From assembly GCF_013415885.1 (NCBI RefSeq), contig NZ_CP058910.1, forward strand, positions 3,100,001 through 3,164,000: a DNA stretch of 64,000 nucleotides. The letters run 5' to 3'. The notes beneath the pieces are model-generated. The model was not told where the DNA came from. It worked only from the letters and a program-made list of their open reading frames with translations, and searched no databases. Below, piece after piece: positions 35,047 to 48,698 of this stretch. This stretch comes from Halosimplex rubrum (GTDB lineage: Archaea > Halobacteriota > Halobacteria > Halobacteriales > Haloarculaceae). A program made the position numbers and the translations under genes. How positions within the stretch are numbered: position 1 is the stretch's first letter; each line of letters begins with the position of its first letter.

Positions 35047-35459
35047 TTACTCGTCGGGGACGGTCCGGGCGGGGAGCCGGACGCGCTCGGAAACGATCGT
35101 CGCGTCGCGGACCCGGTGGAACTGGTGGCGGTTGGCTGCCTTCTCGATGAGCTCGTATTCAGCGAGCTTCCGCAGCTTGTCCCGACGCCGGCGCTCGGCG
35201 ATCGGCTTCGCGGTGACGCCGGTGTAGACCTTCTCTTGGACCCGTACGTAGCGGTCGTGCAGGTCGCCGGGCTTGATCTCACCGGCCTCGCGGATCAGCT
35301 CGTAGAGGACGTGGTAGTCGTAGTCCATCGACCGCAGGTTTGCCTCGCGGATGCGGCCCAGCGCCCGCTGGTAGGCCACGCCGATGTCGACGGTTTCGAC
35401 CGGGCAGTTACGCTCGTCGGCGAGTTCGGCCGCAGCCCGGAGCGTCTGGATGGCCTTAC
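35047..35459 (-). pseudogene. orc1: C-terminal fragment of provirus Orc1/Cdc6, cut off by transposon insertion
   Basis: From the TTAC duplication leftward the minus strand encodes KAIQTLRAAAELADERNC and on to the C-terminal winged helix (VYTGVTAKPIAERRRRDKLR, YELIEKAANRHQFHRVRDAT), about 136 residues typical of Orc1/Cdc6 domains III. It has no own start; the open frame only continues into the inverted repeat of the element. Its N-terminal partner is at 41929-42575. Confidence 0.85.
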
Positions 35460-35491
35460 CAGTAGTTGAAAACACGGAGATTCTATTCAGC
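35460..35491 (+). repeat. Left terminal inverted repeat
   Basis: Reads CAGTAGTTG at the tip and TATTCAGC at its inner end. It matches the right end (inward, CAGTTGTTG...TATTCAGC) at 22 of 32 positions with no gap. The transposase stop codon is 15 bp further in. Confidence 0.8.
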
Positions 35492-35506
35492 AACGCCCCC
35501 GGCGAA

Positions 35507-37369
35507 TCAGTCGGCGTCTGAGGTGCTCCAACCGGCCCCGAGAACGTCGCCAAATACCTGTCGAGTTTCTGGTGGTTCGGTCGGAATCCGAAGGTCGTGC
35601 GGGTCGTCCTCGATGGCCTGCATCAGCTCACCAGCAGTCAGTTGCTTCCCCTCGCTCAGGGCCTCGCCAGTCTCCTCGGCGCGGAGGATGTTCGCTACCG
35701 TCCAGATGTTGAACAGGTGGGCCGCGAAGTTGAAGTAGAACGCTCGTATCGCCGGGTCCCGTGACGCTGACTTGGCGAGGAACTCCTCCTTGATCACGCG
35801 GAAGTCCGTCTCGATGCCCCACCGACGCCGGTACGCCTCACCCAACTCCTCCGGTGGAACCTCTTCGGGATGCAGGTTCGTGTAGAAGTACGTGTAGTCG
35901 TCCATCGGCTCTTCAGCTTCTGACTTCCGTAGTTTCACCGTCTTGTCCGACTTCAGCCCGACCGCGTAGTAGCTGTCCTCGTCGAGGTCGCCGACGCCGT
36001 ACGGGTAGTACGACGAACGAAGATCGGCACGCGCCATCCCGTTCAGGAAGTGTTTGACTGTCTTTCCCGACTTGCGGCCCTGCATCACCAGCTCCAGCCC
36101 CTGCTCGGTGATAGCCGAAATCGTATCCGAGTTGTAGAACTCCGTCCCGGCGTCGAGGTAGACGCGGCCAATGTTCACGTGTTGCCGGCTCAGACGGAGC
36201 ATCCGGCGAATGTACTTCGGCGTCTTCGACTTGTCCTTGACCGGGAGCACGACCAAAATCAGCGGCGTGTCGCTCCCGACGAGAGCGAGCGTGATGTACT
36301 TCCAGGCCCACGAGTAGTTCCGTCCCGGCTTCGTTCCGCGAATGAATCCGTCGCCGTCTGCATCGCCGTAGAACGGCCAGTCCGTGATGTCGATGGCGAC
36401 CTCTGCCTCCTCGGGGAAGTAGTCGTGCCTGGAGGCGATCTCGAACAGTACCTCGTTCGCTTCCCGGAACATCCGCATGACGGACTCCCGCGAAGACTTC
36501 CGCAGGTGGTAGGTGAGGTTCTGCCCCGTCGGAATGTCGCCGTCGTCGTAGAACGGCTTGTACTTGAGGTTCTTCGCGGCGTCGTTGACGAACCCGTTCC
36601 CGTTCGCGGCGGCGATGAGCACCCGGAGAGCGGCGTCCTTCGTCACTTCCGTGCTGTCGTCGCGCTTCAGCCGGATGTACTTGAACGTCTTCGAGCGCAG
36701 CTCCCGAGCGATCACCTGGACCGGCGGAAACCCCTCACCGTCAGTGACTATCGTGTCCGGCGTCGGGTCTCGGAACCAGTGTTCGACCCTCGTGTCCTGC
36801 ATTCGCCGAACCAGCGTCTCGGTCTCACTCGCGTAGTAGTGTCGTGTATCCTCGTCCATCCGTCCCGGCATCCGGTTCAGCGTCGGCTGACTCACCGAGT
36901 CCTCAATGTCCAACGCCTCCCGAATGTCGGGGTCGTTGATGGCACGGGCAACACCCGACTGGTTGAGTGCCGAGAGGTCGAAGAACAGATACAGCCGCGT
37001 TGCGTCCTCTCCATCGAGATTCTCTGTGAGATGGTCGTTTTTTCCTTCCGACCAGTAGTAGTGCCGAAGCTGGACTTTCCCGAGTGCCTTTGCGAGGCGA
37101 TGCTCGGGCGTCTCCAGTTCGTCGTAAAAATCGCAGACGCGGTAAGCCTCAGACTTGATCGCCTCCCACAGCGGCGGCGTGATGTTCTTGGCTGGATTTC
37201 GACTCAGGAGCCCCGTGTACGCCCACGGATCATCCCGCGGGTCGTCGGGTAGCTTCCTCTCAGCTTCCCTGTACCGGCTTGAAATCTCCGCCTTCTCCTG
37301 CCACCGCTCGTGGATTTCACCCTTCGACTCGGGATCACGGTCAGCGTCCTCGTCTTTCTCCTTGGTCAC
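35507..37369 (-). CDS. DDE transposase, IS4 superfamily (ISH3/IS701-like), unusually long
   Basis: 620 aa from GTG 37369. The DDE residues fit D327 or D330 in AIDITDWPFYGD, D406 in YLDAGTEFYN and E520 in YRRRWGIETDFRVIKEEF, where Y513-R516-E520-K527 matches the Y(2)R(3)E(6)K signature of IS4-related enzymes. ISH3-like enzymes are usually near 400 aa, so the first 200 residues (charged, helical) are an extra domain, possibly for end recognition. The 4-bp duplication fits the ISH3 or IS701 groups. The gene lies 15 bp inside the left end and just behind the toxin gene. Confidence 0.87.
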   Translation of the reverse strand: MTKEKDEDADRDPESKGEIHERWQEKAEISSRYREAERKLPDDPRDDPWAYTGLLSRNPAKNITPPLWEAIKSEAYRVCDFYDELETPEHRLAKALGKVQLRHYYWSEGKNDHLTENLDGEDATRLYLFFDLSALNQSGVARAINDPDIREALDIEDSVSQPTLNRMPGRMDEDTRHYYASETETLVRRMQDTRVEHWFRDPTPDTIVTDGEGFPPVQVIARELRSKTFKYIRLKRDDSTEVTKDAALRVLIAAANGNGFVNDAAKNLKYKPFYDDGDIPTGQNLTYHLRKSSRESVMRMFREANEVLFEIASRHDYFPEEAEVAIDITDWPFYGDADGDGFIRGTKPGRNYSWAWKYITLALVGSDTPLILVVLPVKDKSKTPKYIRRMLRLSRQHVNIGRVYLDAGTEFYNSDTISAITEQGLELVMQGRKSGKTVKHFLNGMARADLRSSYYPYGVGDLDEDSYYAVGLKSDKTVKLRKSEAEEPMDDYTYFYTNLHPEEVPPEELGEAYRRRWGIETDFRVIKEEFLAKSASRDPAIRAFYFNFAAHLFNIWTVANILRAEETGEALSEGKQLTAGELMQAIEDDPHDLRIPTEPPETRQVFGDVLGAGWSTSDAD

Positions 37370-37375
37370 GTCGTG

Positions 37376-37681
37376 TCACCCCTCCGCGTCGTCCCGCCAT
37401 GACCCCCACACCTCACGGTACTTCCCGAGTTCTCGGTACTCCTTCTTCCGCTCGAAGGCGTCGATGGCGTAGAGCACCTCGTTGTCCTTGTCCCAATCAA
37501 TCAGCACGCGAAAGTCGCCGACACGAAGCTTGTAGCCGGGGTGGTTCTTCAGCCGGTCCAGAAAGTGATCCGGGAAGTCCTCGATGTCCTCCAGCTTGTT
37601 GATGATCCGCTCCGCATCCTGCGTTTCGAACTGCTCCAGCGTTTCGACCAACGTCTCCGTCAGAACGACCTCGTGAGCCAC
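37376..37681 (-). CDS. RelE/ParE-type toxin
   Basis: 101 aa. LVETLEQFETQDAERIINKL, HPGYKLRVGDFRVLIDWD and VLYAIDAFERKKEYREL match the RelE-like fold, with conserved Arg and Lys of the active surface. RelE toxins cleave mRNA in the ribosome, ParE relatives act on gyrase. It follows the antitoxin gene by 10 bp and precedes the transposase by 6 bp, so all three may be one transcript. Confidence 0.82.
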   Translation of the reverse strand: MAHEVVLTETLVETLEQFETQDAERIINKLEDIEDFPDHFLDRLKNHPGYKLRVGDFRVLIDWDKDNEVLYAIDAFERKKEYRELGKYREVWGSWRDDAEG

Positions 37682-37691
37682 CGTTCAGCCC

Positions 37692-37967
37692 TCAGTCCTG
37701 ATCGATGCCGAGGCGTTCGCGGGCCTCGTCCGTGGACATCGTCCGACCCGCCGCCACGTCCGCGTAGCCCTCGGAGACACCCTCCTGTGCCCCGGGCGTC
37801 AGAATCGGCTCCGTGGTGTCACGCAGCACCTCACGGATGAACTCCGAGCGGTTGGTGTACTCCAACTCCTCGGCCAGTTCGTCGATCTCTTCGAGAAGGC
37901 GCTTCGGGACCTTCACGTTCAATTTCACCATGTCCCCGTCGCCGTTGTCGTCCGCGCCCGTGCTCAT
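37692..37967 (-). CDS. Ribbon-helix-helix antitoxin
   Basis: 91 aa. VKLNVKVPKRLLEEIDELAE and YTNRSEFIREVLRDTTEP form the ribbon-helix-helix DNA-binding part. The tail (EGYADVAAGRTMSTDEARERLG) should neutralise the toxin. Its promoter holds two GTGGTAC direct repeats between a TATA box and the ATG, the likely site of autorepression. Confidence 0.8.
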   Translation of the reverse strand: MSTGADDNGDGDMVKLNVKVPKRLLEEIDELAEELEYTNRSEFIREVLRDTTEPILTPGAQEGVSEGYADVAAGRTMSTDEARERLGIDQD

Positions 37968-37972
37968 ACGCC

Positions 37973-37990
37973 GTGGTACGCGGGTGGTAC
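37973..37990. promoter_or_regulatory. Operator of the toxin-antitoxin operon
   Basis: GTGGTAC-GCGG-GTGGTAC: two 7-bp direct repeats with 4-bp spacer. They lie between the minus-strand TATA box (GTATAA, 38000-38006) and the antitoxin ATG at 37967. Tandem short repeats are the usual targets of RHH dimers. Confidence 0.55.
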
Positions 37991-38095
37991 ATTTTAGTCT
38001 TTATACGATTTCTTCATTCGCCGCATCAGTCGTCGCGGGGATCGGCGACCAGTTCATACATTTTGTTTCAAATTCGATTTCTTCAATTGGTGTTG

Positions 38096-38284
38096 TCAGT
38101 ACTCGTCCTCGCAAACGACTGCACGCAACTCTTCAAGCACGTCCGGTCGGTGATCCTTCAACACCTCAATGTCATGGGGAAGCTCTTCACTGATCCGCTG
38201 GCGAACCCGGTACACTGCTTGGTCCTTCTGTCGTTGCGAAGGGTCGCTCTCTCCGGAAATATGTTCACGGTCCGTTTCAGTCAT
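38096..38284 (-). CDS. Small protein of a haloarchaeal virus/plasmid family
   Basis: 62 aa from ATG 38284 (MTETDREHISGESDPSQRQK). The pattern ISGE, then QAVYRVRQRISEELPHDIEV and LEELRAVVCED, recurs in small proteins next to haloarchaeal mobile-element genes. It is divergent from the cas7-like operon across the large inverted repeat and may regulate it; that is inference. Confidence 0.55.
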   Translation of the reverse strand: MTETDREHISGESDPSQRQKDQAVYRVRQRISEELPHDIEVLKDHRPDVLEELRAVVCEDEY

Positions 38285-38337
38285 GATGGCGCGGTAGCGT
38301 CCCATCTCATTTGGCCTATCTGGTACCATCCAGTTCA

Positions 38338-38425
38338 ACCTATGCATCTGTGCCTACTTAAATCTATGCACCAATGCATTGCTATGCAACTATGCAAAGG
38401 TTGAAGTAGGCACAGGTGCATAGGT
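38338..38425. repeat. 88-bp inverted repeat with TATGCA hexamers upstream of the HRAMP-like operon
   Basis: Arms of 22 bp (38338-38359 and 38404-38425) are complementary with one mismatch; they read ACCTATGCA..TGCCTACTT and its complement. The 44-bp centre contains further TATGCA units (38365, 38383, 38391) and ATGCAT (38374). In all, five TATGCA hexamers occur, four direct and one inverted. ACTTAAAT at 38356-38363 is TATA-like on both strands. The region is either a divergent promoter with clustered operators or, if transcribed, a long hairpin RNA. Confidence 0.7.
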
Positions 38426-38473
38426 GTAACTGAGGAGTCCGGTCCCATCGGGGCGTGACCTGTCGTAGGAAAT

Positions 38474-38498
38474 GCCCGCGTGCTGATGACACGCGGGC
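38474..38498 (+). ncRNA. Leader hairpin before the HRAMP-like operon (candidate RNA element)
   Basis: GCCCGCGTG-CTGATGA-CACGCGGGC: perfect 9-bp stem with 7-nt loop, ending 21 bp before the ATG at 38520. If transcription starts near 38387, this lies in the mRNA leader. It may be a processing site, a regulatory structure or part of a guide RNA; only the hairpin itself is seen. Confidence 0.4.
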
Positions 38499-38519
38499 CG
38501 GGCTTCTGTGGAGAAACCC

Positions 38520-38666
38520 ATGGCAACCAACGAGACCCGCGAACTTCAAGAGTTCGCAACGACCGAGGAATCGGACGAAAACGACGACTGCGACTGTGAC
38601 AATCTGAGCGACGACTTCCCGTGTTGGGAATGCGTTCGCACCGGCAAGCGCGAGGTCCCGAACTGA
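38520..38666 (+). CDS. 48-aa cysteine-rich protein
   Basis: ATG 38520, TGA 38664-38666. Acidic N-terminus, then CDCDNLSDDFPCWECVRTGK: four cysteines in CDC and CWEC spacing can hold one zinc. Similar mini zinc proteins are common in haloarchaeal mobile elements. First gene of the operon, 2 bp before the next start. Confidence 0.6.
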   Translation: MATNETRELQEFATTEESDENDDCDCDNLSDDFPCWECVRTGKREVPN

Positions 38667-38668
38667 CG

Positions 38669-39022
38669 ATGAACGGGATTGCAACGGTCACCGCGACACC
38701 GGACCAGGTGTTCGAGGGCTACGCGGTCGGCTCCGGTGGGAAAGCTGCCTGTACCGGATGTCAGCGTACGGTCCGCGACGGCGACCCGGTCGGGATCTAC
38801 GCCCACCAGACCAGTGACGCCGCGCGATGGGACATTGCCCGCCTGTTCTGCGTCGATTGTCGGGAGACGTCGATTCAACACCCGACGACCGGCGCGACCG
38901 AGGTCGTCCTCAACGCCCGCTTGGGCGTCACGTCGGATGCTGCGACCCAATCCGCGCGACTGACGCTGCGCGACATCGAGACGATGCAGCTCTCCCCGCC
39001 CGAAGATGGGGGTGAACCCTGA
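38669..39022 (+). CDS. Zinc-finger protein of the HRAMP-like operon
   Basis: 117 aa from ATG 38669. C28-x2-C31 (ACTGCQ) and C61-x2-C64 (FCVDCR) enclose a beta-rich segment with VGIYAHQTSD, probably one C4 zinc site. The tail is helical. It may bind nucleic acid or be an adaptor to the complex. It resembles small haloarchaeal plasmid proteins, so a passenger role is possible. The next gene starts directly after its stop. Confidence 0.6.
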   Translation: MNGIATVTATPDQVFEGYAVGSGGKAACTGCQRTVRDGDPVGIYAHQTSDAARWDIARLFCVDCRETSIQHPTTGATEVVLNARLGVTSDAATQSARLTLRDIETMQLSPPEDGGEP

Positions 39023-39310
39023 ATGGACGACGCCGAGAAGTGGCGTGAAGTCGGGCGCAAGGCCGTCGGGATGGAACTCGAAGACGCCCGGTACGACGTC
39101 GAGTCGGCGTTGTACGCCATCACCGTGGACACGATGTTCCGGGGTGGCGATCCGACGGCCGACCAGGTCAAGGAGGCCCGGATGGCGCTGAACCTTGCCC
39201 ACCGGATTCTCGAAGAGTACGTCGCCCCCGCCGCTGGCTGTGAGCCGTGGGGCGACCCCGTCCCGGACATGCCCTACGGCCGGGCGAAGGAAGTGTACCA
39301 TCTCGAATGA
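39023..39310 (+). CDS. Small helical protein of the HRAMP-like operon
   Basis: 95 aa, mainly helical: WREVGRKAVGMELEDARYDV, YAITVDTMFRGGDPTADQVK and MALNLAHRILEEYVAPAAG. The size and helical content are similar to small subunits (Cas11-like) of class 1 effectors; no motif proves this. Zero spacing to the zinc-finger gene and 19 bp to the Cas7-like gene. Confidence 0.55.
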   Translation: MDDAEKWREVGRKAVGMELEDARYDVESALYAITVDTMFRGGDPTADQVKEARMALNLAHRILEEYVAPAAGCEPWGDPVPDMPYGRAKEVYHLE

Positions 39311-39329
39311 CAACTGAAGAAATCAAATA

Positions 39330-40190
39330 ATGACAGAAATCGACATCGACCGCGACGTGTTCGTGCGAATCCGTACCGACCTGCTGGTGGTCGGGGACAG
39401 CATCATGACCGACAGACACCACGCCTCGAACGGCAACTACGAGGACAACGACCCGCAGAACCAGATCGGCGGGATCATCCCGGCGTTCAGCCTCTCGGGA
39501 TGGCTTCGCCACGGGATGGAGAAGGTCGTCCAGGAACGTGACGGTACGGCCTGCCACCCCGGCGAGGCCAACGCGAACTTCCGGAAGGACGGCGTCTACA
39601 ACCGCGACCTCGACGCCGGCTACCACGAGAAGGGCGTGTGCCTCGAAGATGATGACGACGACGGGTGCGTGATTCTCGACCTCTTCGGCGGCTTCGGGAA
39701 TCGCCCCGGGAAGTTCATGCGCCGCCCGATTCAGTTCTCGCCGGTCCGCTCCAGCGTGGACTACACGCGCGGACAGGCCGAAGGCCACTACCGCCGCATC
39801 AACCGGAACGTCGTCTCCCGGAATGAGGAAGACAACCGAGAGCCGCTCCGGAACGCCGAACTGGACGCCGTCGGGAACCTCGACGGCTGCTGGCACCTCT
39901 CCTTCCGGGAGACCAAGCCCGAGTTCGTCGCGCTGCTCGCCGAGGCCATCGACTTCCTCGATGAGCATCAGACCGACTTCATGCACCAGCTCGGCGGGGC
40001 TCGGAACTTCGGCGGCGGGATCGTGGACTGCGACCTCGTGAACCCACTCTACAACGAGACCGAACTCCGCCGCGTCTTCGACCGCGGGAAGGGCAACACG
40101 AACAAAATGGACGACAAAGACGAGAAGTGGGAGACCGAGTACCTGCCGGAGTTCCAGGCGGCGCTCGCAGAGCGCGTGGAGGAAGTATGA
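39330..40190 (+). CDS. Cas7-like RAMP protein (HRAMP-type backbone subunit)
   Basis: 286 aa. RAMP hallmarks in order: RIRTDLLVVGDSIM (first strand), IIPAFSLSGWLRHG (49-62, the loop seen in Csm3/Cmr4/Csf2-type Cas7), ILDLFGGFGNRPGKFMRRPI (115-134, the LFG block), and LGGARNFGGGIVDCDLV (221-237, glycine-rich loop). Cas7 proteins coat guide RNA as a helical filament. No CRISPR array or Cas10/Cas8 gene is near, which matches the haloarchaeal HRAMP systems rather than type III. Its stop overlaps the next ATG by 4 bp. Confidence 0.78.
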   Translation: MTEIDIDRDVFVRIRTDLLVVGDSIMTDRHHASNGNYEDNDPQNQIGGIIPAFSLSGWLRHGMEKVVQERDGTACHPGEANANFRKDGVYNRDLDAGYHEKGVCLEDDDDDGCVILDLFGGFGNRPGKFMRRPIQFSPVRSSVDYTRGQAEGHYRRINRNVVSRNEEDNREPLRNAELDAVGNLDGCWHLSFRETKPEFVALLAEAIDFLDEHQTDFMHQLGGARNFGGGIVDCDLVNPLYNETELRRVFDRGKGNTNKMDDKDEKWETEYLPEFQAALAERVEEV

Positions 40191-40927
40191 GCGACGTGAT
40201 GCTCACCGCCTTCCGGCACGACGTCCACAAGTTCACCGGTGAGAGCCACGAGGACGCTCGTGAGGAGTTCGCCGGTGTTCCCGTGAACCAGCCGGTGCCC
40301 GAGGGCGCGGACGGCGATGCGGCGGCGCTCTCGCGGCCTCAGCAGAAGCAGGAGCAGACCGTCCCGACCCACGACGACCACTACCGACTCTCGCTGCTGA
40401 CCGGCGAGACCGCCTACGACCCCGGAGAGTTCTCCCGGGCGACCATCGAGAGCGAGGTAGCGGACCTCATCGGCATCGAGGACGCACAGACGGCCCACGA
40501 GCGGTGGCTCACAAGCGACGTGGCCGCCGCGTTCAACGAGTCAGTCTACCACCCGTACACGAGCCTGAAGTACCACACGCTGCTCGTGGCGGCGCTGCTG
40601 GACAACTACCGCGCCGGGAACGAGTTCGCCGACCTTCGGCTCATCGTGGACCCGGCGGGCGAGATCGCTCCGTTCCGCACCGTCTTCGATGGCGAACGGT
40701 TCGCGCTCCGCATCGGCGTCGAGGCGGACGGGTGTCCCTCTGCTCGCCTCGGGAGCCGTCCGTGGCGGTCGTGGGCGTCGGCGTGGAACCGCCTGACGGC
40801 GCACCCGCTCGATACCGGCCACGACAAGTACGACATGACGCTCGATGCGAACCTGCGACGGACGCAGTCCTGGAGCACGGCGCTCCAGTACATCGAGGAC
40901 TACGCCGAGTGGAGGCCCGACCGATGA
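40187..40927 (+). CDS. Unknown protein of the HRAMP-like operon
   Basis: 246 aa from ATG 40187, overlapping the Cas7-like stop (ATGA). It begins VMLTAFRHDVHKFTGESHED, has a helix-rich middle (YHPYTSLKYHTLLVAALLDN) and beta strands (FADLRLIVDPAGEIAPFRTV). It lies between the Cas7- and Cas5-like genes, where HRAMP loci carry a conserved uncharacterised protein. No HD, HNH or PD-(D/E)XK nuclease motif is seen. It may be a large-subunit substitute. Confidence 0.62.
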   Translation: MSDVMLTAFRHDVHKFTGESHEDAREEFAGVPVNQPVPEGADGDAAALSRPQQKQEQTVPTHDDHYRLSLLTGETAYDPGEFSRATIESEVADLIGIEDAQTAHERWLTSDVAAAFNESVYHPYTSLKYHTLLVAALLDNYRAGNEFADLRLIVDPAGEIAPFRTVFDGERFALRIGVEADGCPSARLGSRPWRSWASAWNRLTAHPLDTGHDKYDMTLDANLRRTQSWSTALQYIEDYAEWRPDR

Positions 40928-41829
40928 CGGCGATTCAGCAAGTCCTGTGGGAGCTGCGAATGGACTACATTGGTCACCCGTACTACGTCAGCGGGAACGC
41001 CATCCTGCACGCTCTCGGTCAGCACCTCGACCCCGAGACGCACGCGGCGGTGTCGGCCAGTCACGGCGTCTTCGTTCCCGGGCAGTTCGGGACGTTCCCC
41101 GAGGAACACAGTCAGTCGGGCATCCGCCCGTACCTCGGGAGCGGTCTCCCCGACGTTGAGGCCTACGACGACCTCTTCCTCCAGCGGGAGGCGATGCACC
41201 CGTGGTTGCTGGATACCCGCGCTCGGGACGCGCTGAACACGCACGATCTCCGCGTCCAGGGCGGCCACCCGGCGCTCGCTCACGAGACCATCATGGGCCG
41301 CCGGGAAGACCAGCGGAAACAGCAGCAGACCACGAAGTGGTACGTCCACGCCTACCTCCACGCTGATGACCCGGCGGTGCTCCCGCTCGGCGAGGATGTG
41401 CTGGAGGGCCTCCAGTTCGGCGGCAAGCGCAACTACGGCTACGGCGAGGTTCAGCTGAAGGACACGCAGATGGTTGACCTCGGTGAACTGGACTACTCGC
41501 GGCTCGAAGGCGCGGAGACGTATCTCATCGAACTCGTGACGCCGTTCGTCCTGGCGTCGGAGTATCCAGAGGCGAACGACCGCACTATCCCGTGGTGGTG
41601 GGCCGAGAACCGGGACAATCTCCGGCTGCGCCAGGAGAAGATACTGGAGCAGCGCGAGGTGTTCAAGCTGGAGACGGTCGATCACGGACAGGTCGTGAAG
41701 TACCTCGGCGACCGCCCGGTGGAGACCGCGAAGAACGGCCTCCAGCGGGTCGGCTCTCACTCCCGATACGGCTTCGGAGAACTGCGGCTGAAGCCCCTCG
41801 GCGAACAGTATCAGGAATCAGAGAAGTAA
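40924..41829 (+). CDS. Cas5-like RAMP protein with two glycine-rich loops
   Basis: 301 aa from ATG 40924, overlapping the upstream stop by 4 bp. Two RAMP modules are suggested: LQFGGKRNYGYGEVQL (163-178) ends the first and GLQRVGSHSRYGFGELRL (272-289) the second. Both are the G-rich loops found at the end of RAMP ferredoxin-like domains in Cas5 and Cas6. As a Cas5 it would cap the guide-RNA 5' end; as a Cas6 it would process RNA. A catalytic His is not evident near the loops. Last gene before the right end of the element. Confidence 0.75.
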   Translation: MTAIQQVLWELRMDYIGHPYYVSGNAILHALGQHLDPETHAAVSASHGVFVPGQFGTFPEEHSQSGIRPYLGSGLPDVEAYDDLFLQREAMHPWLLDTRARDALNTHDLRVQGGHPALAHETIMGRREDQRKQQQTTKWYVHAYLHADDPAVLPLGEDVLEGLQFGGKRNYGYGEVQLKDTQMVDLGELDYSRLEGAETYLIELVTPFVLASEYPEANDRTIPWWWAENRDNLRLRQEKILEQREVFKLETVDHGQVVKYLGDRPVETAKNGLQRVGSHSRYGFGELRLKPLGEQYQESEK

Positions 41830-41896
41830 CGACTAACTGGCCACCAATGCAACACCAGAATCAGGATGAATCGGGCGAGAAAAATACAGCGGTGCG

Positions 41897-41928
41897 GCTG
41901 AATAAAGAAATCGTATTACCAACAACTG
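41897..41928 (-). repeat. Right terminal inverted repeat
   Basis: Inward reading starts CAGTTGTTG and ends TATTCAGC, pairing with the left end at 35460-35491 over 32 positions with 10 mismatches. It is followed by the TTAC target duplication. Confidence 0.8.
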
Positions 41929-42575
41929 TTACGGGCGGTCCCCGAGGACCGGTCGGCGATACGCTCCAGGTACGACCGGTCGACGCCGCCGCGGAGGCCT
42001 TTCCGGACGCGGGGTTCGAGGATGTCCGCCAGCTCCGCGGGGGCGTACGTCGAGAGCTGTAGGCCCGCGCCGGTCAGCCGGTGCTGGACGCGGTGGTCGT
42101 CGAGATCCTGGCGGAAGTGCTCGGGGTCGTGGACGATGGGCACCACCCCGACCCAGGACACGTCGGTCAGCCGCCGCAGGACATCCTCGTTGAGGTCGTC
42201 GGCTTCGTCGAGGACGACCACAGTCGGGTCGGTGACTCGCTCGCGCAGCGCGAGGCACACGTCTTCGAGCGGCTCCCGGTCGCCGGGGTCGCCGCCGAGC
42301 TGCCGCAGCGCCTCCCGGACGATCTCGGCGACCGTCTCGCCCATCGTCCGGATATGCGCCCAGTTGGCGTCGGTCTCGTCCTGCAGATCCGAGACGGTGT
42401 GGCGGACCAGTGCCGTCTTCCCGACGCCGTGGGGACCGTACAGCAGGACATCGTCGGGGCGCTCGCCGCGCAACGCCGGCTCGAACGCACGTGCGAGGGC
42501 GTTCTGCTCGGCGTCCCGATGGAGTAACCGATCGGGGACGTACTCGCCCTCGAAAACGTGCGGGTTACTGATCAC
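41929..42575 (-). pseudogene. orc1: N-terminal AAA+ part of provirus Orc1/Cdc6, interrupted by the transposon
   Basis: The likely start is GTG 42575 (VISNPHVFEGEYVPDRLLHR), preceded by a TTTTTGT box about 28 bp upstream. Walker A is GPHGVGKT (47-54), Walker B VVVLDEADDL (119-128), and the sensor region runs to SSGTAR, where the element cuts in. Readthrough adds only NSCW before a stop. Rejoined with 35047-35459 the protein would be about 351 aa, a normal Orc1/Cdc6. The provirus replication initiator is therefore broken unless another copy exists. Confidence 0.87.
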
Positions 42576-46703: not shown

Positions 46704-48698
46704 TCAGACGGTCATGTTGAGTCGTGGAGCGATCTCGATGTTCCAATCGTAGATGCGGAGGGTCTGAGCGGTTGCTGACTTTGTTCGCGCCTCGGCGTTG
46801 AACAGATAGAGGTGACTCTGAGCGTCCGCTGATGTGGTTGAGTTATCCAGCGGCGGCACGTGCTCGTCGCACATCCACGCCCCGTTTTCGGTGTTGTGGT
46901 CGACCGATGCGGAGATGCGGTCCAGCGAGCGCGTCATCCGGATCTGATAGTGAGTCGGTCCACCCGTCGGATTGGGTAGCGTCGCAGCTCCCGTCTGGAA
47001 GTCAGTCCCGTCAGAGGCCCAGAGGTTCGTGTTGCCGCTATTGAAGTAGAGGCCGACGAAGGTCTGGCCGCCAGCAGCAGTGAATCCTCGTCCGATGTGG
47101 CCCGCGAAATCAGTCATGTTGTCGATCTCGCAGACGACATTGAGCACCATGTCCGCCCAGTCTACTCCCTCGGCGTTGGTGAGCGGCGCCGCCGACCGCT
47201 GCATCATCATAGCCGCTTTGTTGCCCGACGCGGAGTTGTCGACATCGAGCTGGTAGTGGGGGCGCCCCGTCTGCTGGATCGTCACAGCGCTGTTGGACCC
47301 GACCTCAGTGGTCTGGTAGCCATCCAGCGACGTGATCGCGTCCTGGTATCCCCAACTCAGCGACTCCCACGTCTCCTCGACGGTCGGCTCGATACCGCCG
47401 TTTGACTGCCAATCCGTCCGATAATCGGTATCATCGCCCGCGTAGGACTGCTGCATCCACCAGTGTCCGTCCTGGTAGATGTGCAGTTTGCCGTACGGCG
47501 TGACAGACCCATCGAAGTCGGTGCCGGTAATCCCGACACCATGCGGGAAATGCTGGTAGAAATACGGCGTCTGCCCCCACCGCTGTACCAACGAGTGATC
47601 GAACGACGGCGAGCGTCCGAAGTTACTCAGATGGTGGCTGTGGCCGAACGTAACCAATTCGATGTTGTCGTGCTGGTCGATGAGATGCCCGTATTTCGCC
47701 TGGTCGTAGAGTCCGATGTTGTCGTACCCGCTGTGCGTGCCTGGTGGGATCGGGGTGTGGGTAAAGACGTAGACGGGTTTGTTGGTACTCTCCAGCTCGT
47801 TTTTGAACCAGTCGAACTGCCCCGATGGGACGCTCGAGTCGAGGTTGGCTTCGGACCCGTCGTTGAACCCCGTGTTCAGGACGATGATCTTTCCGTGGTG
47901 TTTGTCGATACTGTAGTAGGTGTCCGAATCCTCGCTGATGCCCCACGGACCGTATGACCACTGGTAGTCCCACGTCCCCGCGTTGGCGAACTCGTGGTTG
48001 CCCCAGACCATGTGGTAGGGGATCGAGTCGTTGAGTTGGCCCTCCAGGTAGTCCCTGAAGTCGGTGATGCGCTGCTGAGAGTTGCTTTGGCTGCTGTTGT
48101 CTTCGGTCGTGATGTCCCCACCCAGAATCACCAGATCGGCACCGCCGTCACCCCACGAATTCATGTCCGCTGCGAACTCGTCGATTTTCGCCTCGAGGGC
48201 GGTCTGGGAGACAAACGAGTTATTGCTGGAGTTGCCCCAGTGAGAGTCGGTCCAATACCCAACTTTCAGCGGCTTCGTGTTGAGTTGCTCTGCACTGATC
48301 GACGGGTCAGAGTTCTGCTCGGCGACCGCGCCCGCGCCGGCGTCGACGATCGCGATGAGTAGCGACGGCGTCGACGGTTCCGAGCCGTCCGCGTCGATGT
48401 GGTAGTTGAGCGACTCATCCACATCCGACGCACCGGCGTCGAACGTCAAGAACACGTGGTTCGTGCCCGACGAGTCCTGCAGTGGGAGGCCCGCGCGCGG
48501 GTCAGGGAATACATCCCACGCCCGATCGGCATCACGAACGACCGCATGGCCGCTGCCGATGTCGATCGTCCCATCGCCGTTGGGCGTGACGGACATGCCT
48601 CGCTCAACGTAGTCGGTCTGGTTGGACTTGGCCGCTCGCTGGGCCAGGTTCTGTTCGCTCAGCTGGTCGCCGTCGTTGAAGAGTACCTTATCACTCAT
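46704..48698 (-). CDS. Tail fibre protein with calcineurin-like metallophosphoesterase domain
   Basis: 664 aa. The first 130 residues resemble a virion attachment domain (NDGDQLSEQNLAQRAAKSNQ). A complete metallophosphoesterase set follows: D151 and H153 in YWTDSHWG, D195 in LGGDITTED, N234-H235 in VWGNHEF, H314 in FTHTP and H353/H355 in FGHSHH. The C-terminal 200 residues are a beta-rich lectin-like domain (WSYLYLFN-type strands, TRSLDRISASVD). It is probably the receptor-binding protein, cleaving phosphate esters on the host surface or in its glycans. Last gene of the late operon; lower GC than neighbours suggests exchange. Confidence 0.75.
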   Translation of the reverse strand: MSDKVLFNDGDQLSEQNLAQRAAKSNQTDYVERGMSVTPNGDGTIDIGSGHAVVRDADRAWDVFPDPRAGLPLQDSSGTNHVFLTFDAGASDVDESLNYHIDADGSEPSTPSLLIAIVDAGAGAVAEQNSDPSISAEQLNTKPLKVGYWTDSHWGNSSNNSFVSQTALEAKIDEFAADMNSWGDGGADLVILGGDITTEDNSSQSNSQQRITDFRDYLEGQLNDSIPYHMVWGNHEFANAGTWDYQWSYGPWGISEDSDTYYSIDKHHGKIIVLNTGFNDGSEANLDSSVPSGQFDWFKNELESTNKPVYVFTHTPIPPGTHSGYDNIGLYDQAKYGHLIDQHDNIELVTFGHSHHLSNFGRSPSFDHSLVQRWGQTPYFYQHFPHGVGITGTDFDGSVTPYGKLHIYQDGHWWMQQSYAGDDTDYRTDWQSNGGIEPTVEETWESLSWGYQDAITSLDGYQTTEVGSNSAVTIQQTGRPHYQLDVDNSASGNKAAMMMQRSAAPLTNAEGVDWADMVLNVVCEIDNMTDFAGHIGRGFTAAGGQTFVGLYFNSGNTNLWASDGTDFQTGAATLPNPTGGPTHYQIRMTRSLDRISASVDHNTENGAWMCDEHVPPLDNSTTSADAQSHLYLFNAEARTKSATAQTLRIYDWNIEIAPRLNMTV

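Follow-up and report, generated by a model that had tools for sequence, protein, structure and literature searches.

What kind of genetic unit carries the Cas7- and Cas5-like genes found on the chromosome of Halosimplex rubrum, and what may they be doing there? HRAMP systems are haloarchaeal and array-less and combine diverged Cas5 and Cas7 proteins, nearest to those of type III, with a conserved extra protein (PMC8730458, PMC12669027); no function, mechanism or guide has been known for them since their first description. The window analysed here is a stretch of 64,000 nucleotides from one closed haloarchaeal contig (NZ_CP058910.1, positions 3100001-3164000), in which a plus-strand operon (38508-41829) encodes three small proteins followed by Cas7, a 246-aa protein (P0002, or p246) and Cas5. 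By match to the published descriptions this operon is very probably HRAMP, and it lies almost certainly inside a mobile DDE element. The first-pass annotation, made from the sequence alone, had placed the module at 38520-41829; the genes are real, yet they make up no more than the rightmost 3.3 kb of an element of 6.47 kb.

The element (35460-41928, 6469 bp) is intact, with TTAC on either side (Table 1). The 31-nt sequence located about 70 nt past the cas5 stop is repeated at the equivalent site of other loci, several of which also carry it in inverted orientation on their left side; in the window its left partner was found 16 bp past the transposase stop. Since this left partner matches the end that follows cas5, the transposase, c9, belongs to the element, and the view of c9 as an unrelated neighbouring insertion sequence was rejected. 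Removal of the element together with one TTAC gave a continuous orc1/cdc6-like frame, ...SSGTARKAIQTLR..., and the two halves of this split provirus gene were located at 42575-41916 and 35475-35047 on the minus strand. The genes of a provirus (27388-63866) surround the element. They encode an integrase, virion structural protein, head maturation protease and tail protein and include early genes as well, which identifies a provirus as the target into which the element transposed. Terminal inverted repeats, a target-site duplication and a DDE transposase, as expected of a DDE transposon, are all carried by the element. Neither an HNH nor a PD-(D/E)xK nuclease was seen in it, and no TnsA-C/TniQ or Mu-type proteins were found, the only transposase being of the DDE_Tnp_1 family.

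Table 1. Features of the HRAMP-bearing element and its ends (positions within the window).
Feature	Position	Strand	Evidence or comment
Left target-site duplication, TTAC	35456..35459	.	Second TTAC copy beyond the right end
Left terminal inverted repeat, reverse complement CTGAATAGAATCTCCGTGTTTTCAACTACTG	35460..35490	-	Inverted match to the right end
DDE_Tnp_1 transposase c9, 620 aa	35507..37369	-	Pfam PF01609, E=2.4e-11
ParE/RelE-type toxin	37376..37681	-	Pfam ParE_toxin, E=7e-4, below cut-off; paired with the ribbon-helix-helix gene
Ribbon-helix-helix antitoxin	37692..37967	-	Pfam RHH_1, E=5.8e-9
Small helical protein, family c7, putative regulator, likely start near 38284	38096..38347	-	Divergent to the operon; c7 membership by eye; c7 occupies that place in 10 loci
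Long imperfect palindrome, 49-nt arms, 80% complementary	38331..38432	.	Divergent promoter region
Small protein, 48 aa (52 aa from GTG at 38508)	38520..38666	+	Open reading frame; 92% identical to the L079 protein
Zn-binding-type small protein, 117 aa, two CxxC pairs, family s117	38669..39022	+	Family is the first gene of clade-B operons, ~28-35% identity
Small protein, 95 aa	39023..39310	+	96% identical to the L079 protein; both neighbours also common to L079
Cas7, type III-derived RAMP, 286 aa	39330..40190	+	PADLOC Csm3, E=7.5e-7; Foldseek, Cas7 of types VII/III/IV
Conserved third subunit P0002, 246 aa	40187..40927	+	Probable Cas10 remnant: HD and start of Palm1
Cas5, Cmr3-like, two-domain, 301 aa, two Gly-rich loops	40924..41829	+	PADLOC Cmr3, E=1.6e-7; family alignment
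Right terminal inverted repeat CTGAATAAAGAAATCGTATTACCAACAACTG	41898..41928	+	31 bp; single copy in own genome
Right target-site duplication, TTAC	41929..41932	.	Identical to the left copy

Homologues of cas7 were found in 105 of 394 haloarchaeal genomes, and the order cas7-p246-cas5 was kept in about 37 of the 40 loci compared; together with the dN/dS values of the core, this speaks against a chance arrangement. The tree constructed from Cas7 and Cas5 split a transposon clade (A), to which the window HRAMP belongs, from an HNH/exonuclease clade (B) at 100/100, with one change each. The right end was present after cas5 in 27 of 35 clade-A loci and in none of 36 clade-B loci, and an end-like sequence occurred nowhere in the clade-B loci searched. 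Of 18 distinct loci in which a right end could be paired with a candidate left end, 14 showed identical 4-bp NTAN duplications. Six of the left ends score weakly, and their recognition relies in part on the duplication match; the decayed copies L153, L154 and L155 gave further matching duplications. Host families were intermixed in the clade-A tree, which fits horizontal movement. Relatives were found in 21 plasmid records and none among viral contigs and phage records.

Clade-B operons read s117 - cas7 - p246 - cas5 - exonuclease (RNase_H_2 fold, E=1.3e-5; DEDD-type) - HNH protein (6.6e-8) and were located outside transposons among helicase, SMC-like and modification-type genes, while clade A lacks nucleases of this type and has variable small genes ahead of cas7. 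At least seven clade-A loci (L031, 7484-8143; L035, L041, L080, L088, L096 and L147) carry there a TnpB-type RuvC protein of about 220 aa that overlaps the cas7 start and matches a Cas12f1-like TNB profile (4.4e-10). These comparisons show clade A to be a transposon-borne, nuclease-less HRAMP. The clade-B gap between cas7 and p246 (e.g. L111, L113, L116) contains a small acidic open reading frame or an N-terminal extension with repeated LDEL..P....LRTAQE. Both clades were met in Halosimplex pelagicum R2 (L077), where a clade-A element lies a few kb from clade-B HRAMP genes, and an Elusimicrobia-labelled bin (L118) contains a clade-A HRAMP, probably on a mis-binned haloarchaeal contig.

The genomic positions of c9 relatives and of HRAMP cas7 genes were compared by hand. 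Most close relatives of c9 had a HRAMP cas7 no more than about 6 kb away, and the close copies that appeared solitary were accompanied by remnants of p246 or cas5 and by ends of the same kind. At L150 HRAMP had been lost and the right end kept, fused to the beginning of a small clade-A gene; a c9 fragment (L158) showed no HRAMP trace, and distant transposases (~30% identity to c9) were found without HRAMP. The close c9 family is thus almost restricted to sites with HRAMP or remnants of it. The transposase-less elements L033, L034, L047, L089 and L092 retain the HRAMP core, which argues that HRAMP is useful apart from the transposase.

That the operon encodes Cas7 and Cas5 is well supported. 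The Cas7-like open reading frame with its blocks IIPAFSLSGWLRHG, LFGGF and GGARNFGGG, the 246-aa frame and the three small genes were found as first annotated, and the cas7/p246 and p246/cas5 junctions are both 4-bp ATGA overlaps. The last gene, initially described as a Cas5/Cas6-like RAMP, does have the Gly-rich loops GGKRNYGYG and HSRYGFGE, and its match to the Cmr3 profile identifies it as Cas5 and not Cas6. Structure prediction, which had been proposed as a check, upheld the Cas7 assignment: the model was moderately confident (pLDDT 71), and its 50 best Foldseek matches in the PDB were Cas7-type RAMPs of types VII, III, IV or gRAMP, most with a probability of 0.97-1.00. Searches of PDB profiles using the Cas7, p246 and Cas5 alignments gave no meaningful match. 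The Cas7 alignment revealed invariant C75, H99, C104 and C113, residues that could bind zinc, and an invariant TDRHHAS within a disordered loop following the first strand; the catalytic Asp of Csm3/Cmr4 is located roughly at the matching position. The dN/dS values of the HRAMP core (0.08-0.41) indicate that it is under purifying selection.

The first-pass annotation also held that the window has no Cas10, CRISPR array or Cas1/2. The array and the adaptation genes are indeed absent, and no tandem array was found in the window, but the statement on Cas10 is doubtful because the nearest solved folds of P0002 are all Cas10. The AlphaFold2 model of P0002 (pLDDT 92, pTM 0.92) was compared with the PDB by Foldseek, and the top 26 matches were all Cas10 (Csm1/Cmr2), the best with E=0.055 and a probability of 0.82; none passes 0.001, and the 26 matches are not independent because they are homologues of one another. 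Invariant residues of P0002 follow the Cas10 order: RHDxHK corresponds to LLHDIGK, ADxDAAxLSR to the AD..S..ER stretch and PYTSLKYHxLLVAAL to Cas10 DISLYDHLRTTSAIAL, with LRLIVD ahead of the first palm strand. The HDxxK motif is invariant across the alignment, and the GGDD cyclase half is absent. Judged from the model, P0002 is probably a Cas10 remnant that has kept the HD motif and the start of Palm1; if so, a two-subunit curiosity becomes a reduced type III effector. The HRAMP reading was in this way supported by the Csm3 and Cmr3 profiles, the Cas7 fold, the lack of an array and the haloarchaeal host, and was incomplete in overlooking the transposon setting, the separate nuclease-less clade and the probable Cas10 remnant.

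A complex of this kind raises the question of its guide RNA. The H. rubrum genome carries, outside the window, cas1, cas6 and an 11-repeat CRISPR array of GTTCCAGACGAACCCTTGTGGGGTTGAAGC near cas1 (L163:14754-15436), and comparison of the ten host spacers with the HRAMP loci gave no match. Genomes with HRAMP carried Cas6 at no higher frequency than others: it was present in 16 of 50 clade-A HRAMP genomes versus 34% (p=0.87) and in 22 of 50 clade-B genomes versus 32% (p=0.11). A supply of crRNA in trans was rejected, given the lack of Cas6 co-occurrence and the unmatched host spacers, and the lack of a link with Cas6 argues against ordinary CRISPR arrays as the source of HRAMP RNA. Three candidates within the element were also rejected: the right end as an RNA scaffold, as its conservation is only slightly above that of the left end (31 nt: 74 vs 66%) and its predicted fold in the window is weak; a guide matching the insertion site, as element and flank do not match; and the palindrome as a guide RNA, as it sits in the divergent promoter position and its sequence differs across elements. 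No preferred target gene was recognised, the insertion targets being unrelated and having NTAN alone in common. In clade B the gap between p246 and cas5 contains repeats of ACTGGAAACGGGGTGTGT (e.g. L120:11855-12155, L132:3436-3640, L111:12096-12360). These are not a plain CRISPR array, because one frame is open, both ends have 4-bp overlaps and the spacings are mostly multiples of three. The frame is of odd composition, reads [AT]LETGCV and has GAA and TGT codons with hardly any synonymous change; the repeats may serve both as coding sequence and as an RNA motif.

We tentatively propose, as the best explanation of the whole, a transposon-borne HRAMP complex with a protective mechanism. Cas7, Cas5 and the Cas10-like protein would form a small CRISPR ribonucleoprotein-like complex on an RNA that does not derive from a canonical CRISPR array, and this complex would protect the element or the host replicon against competing elements. 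The effector could be the HD site of the Cas10-like protein itself or the set of exchangeable genes that immediately precedes cas7, while the transposase would spread the element and the ParE/RHH pair and the regulator would stabilise it. The protective role is favoured because the core survives in transposase-less elements and the sister clade carries nucleases. Several results weigh against this proposal: no right end could be recognised in eight of the 35 clade-A loci; hhalign and hmmsearch comparisons of P0002 with Cas10 gave chance-level scores, and so no sequence-profile support; a search for a cis guide RNA at the clade-A element yielded neither an array nor a stable conserved RNA at the right end; and the element shares no more sequence with its own target flank than unrelated pairs do (mean 11.07 vs 11.09 nt). 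Moreover, sequence alone cannot tell apart defence, silencing and guided transposition.

An ordinary defence passenger, functionally unlinked to the transposon and captured by it once, is a possible but rather doubtful alternative; the location of clade B outside transposons and the free exchange of the upstream small gene sets (L079 vs window) speak for it, but the association with one transposase subfamily is long and exclusive. The dedication of that transposase also keeps assisted transposition in view, with the complex as target selector in a type III-derived counterpart of the CRISPR-associated transposons (CASTs) that uses a single DDE transposase. The subfamily of this transposase is hardly met outside HRAMP elements, the HRAMP loci with inverted repeats form one clade, cas5 directly adjoins the right end in most loci of clade A, and the missing sister-clade nucleases recall the disarmed effectors of known CASTs. 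However, RNA-guided or ribonucleoprotein-assisted transposition appears unlikely when no array or guide is found, element and target are no more alike than unrelated pairs, the targets share only NTAN, no TnsC/TniQ-like gene is present and transposase-less elements retain HRAMP. An array-less complex of Cas7, Cas5 and a Cas10 remnant that directs a single-subunit DDE transposase, or licenses it, via a non-CRISPR RNA would be a new CAST class, which is unlikely to the same degree. The complex could instead regulate its own element, for instance through silencing of the transposase or toxin mRNA or through a block on competing copies. The variant is compact and nuclease-less, has an operator-like divergent promoter with a small regulator, and its ends are present in one copy only in its own genome; but no element-encoded guide was found and non-autonomous, transposase-less copies retain HRAMP, and we regard such self-regulation as improbable. 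Finally, a chance likeness of Gly-rich proteins that are not CRISPR-derived can hardly be credited: the Pfam match of Cas7 is slightly below cut-off (RAMPs, E=3.5e-4) and that of Cas5 weak, but curated defence profiles match at 1e-7, the top Foldseek matches of Cas7 are all Cas7-type with a probability near 1 and those of its neighbour P0002 are Cas10 only.

Compared with known systems, the window version resembles HRAMP in its type III-nearest Cas7, Cmr3-profile Cas5, conserved p246 and lack of an array. It differs in lying in a DDE transposon with inverted repeats and a target-site duplication, in its Cas10-like extra protein, in belonging to a clade apart from the HNH-bearing loci and in lacking a nuclease; an HNH or PD-(D/E)xK nuclease is typical of HRAMP, though not obligatory (PMC8730458, PMC12669027). 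ARAMP of Asgard archaea is likewise array-less, RAMP-based and type III-derived, and mostly occurs with a form of Cas1 (PMC8730458, PMC12669027); by these descriptions the element shares the first three traits and is set apart by having no Cas1. With type III (Csm/Cmr) systems the element has in common a Csm3-like Cas7, a Cmr3-like Cas5 and, probably, a Cas10-like N-terminal part, but not the GGDD cyclase half, Cas11, Cas6, an array or CARF effectors. Some clade-A elements recall the IS200/IS605 TnpB elements through the TnpB-type RuvC protein directly upstream of cas7, but the transposase differs, and the window element has no TnpB gene and no recognised right-end guide RNA. As in CASTs, effector genes lie inside a transposon with its own transposase, ends and target-site duplication and without a canonical interference nuclease; unlike CASTs, the element has a single DDE_Tnp_1 transposase, no TnsA-C/TniQ, no array and a type III-derived effector. 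Transposon-borne CRISPR variants include I-F, I-B, I-C, I-D, IV-A and V-K, together with I-A with Mu and the telomeric I-E5, and those catalogued in PMC12669027 and the review PMC11656645 include no HRAMP or type III-derived case, which is not proof of novelty. A description of HRAMP and a dedicated transposase in one transposon was not found in the literature. Half of HRAMP now sits in a transposon whose ends are defined and whose transposase is dedicated to it, and this makes the system testable: the unit can be cloned and moved, and its genes mutated one at a time. An effect of the complex on transposition would make it a type III-derived transposon system that needs far fewer components than the Tn7-like ones; a defence role would make it a mobile, array-less defence.

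The region upstream of cas7 varies among elements. The three small genes of the window (38520-39307) are 92-96% identical to those of L079 (9141-9928) and the HRAMP cores only 68-83%, and since the small genes are far closer than the core, this slot has been swapped by module exchange. The small helical protein encoded divergently had no Pfam match. The palindrome beside it, in which TATGCA is repeated, is probably an operator; a similar sequence was found in L085 and L087 and a different one in L079, and it is otherwise not conserved among elements. Amid the tail genes of the surrounding provirus, a 664-aa protein with a calcineurin-like phosphoesterase domain is encoded at 46704-48698.

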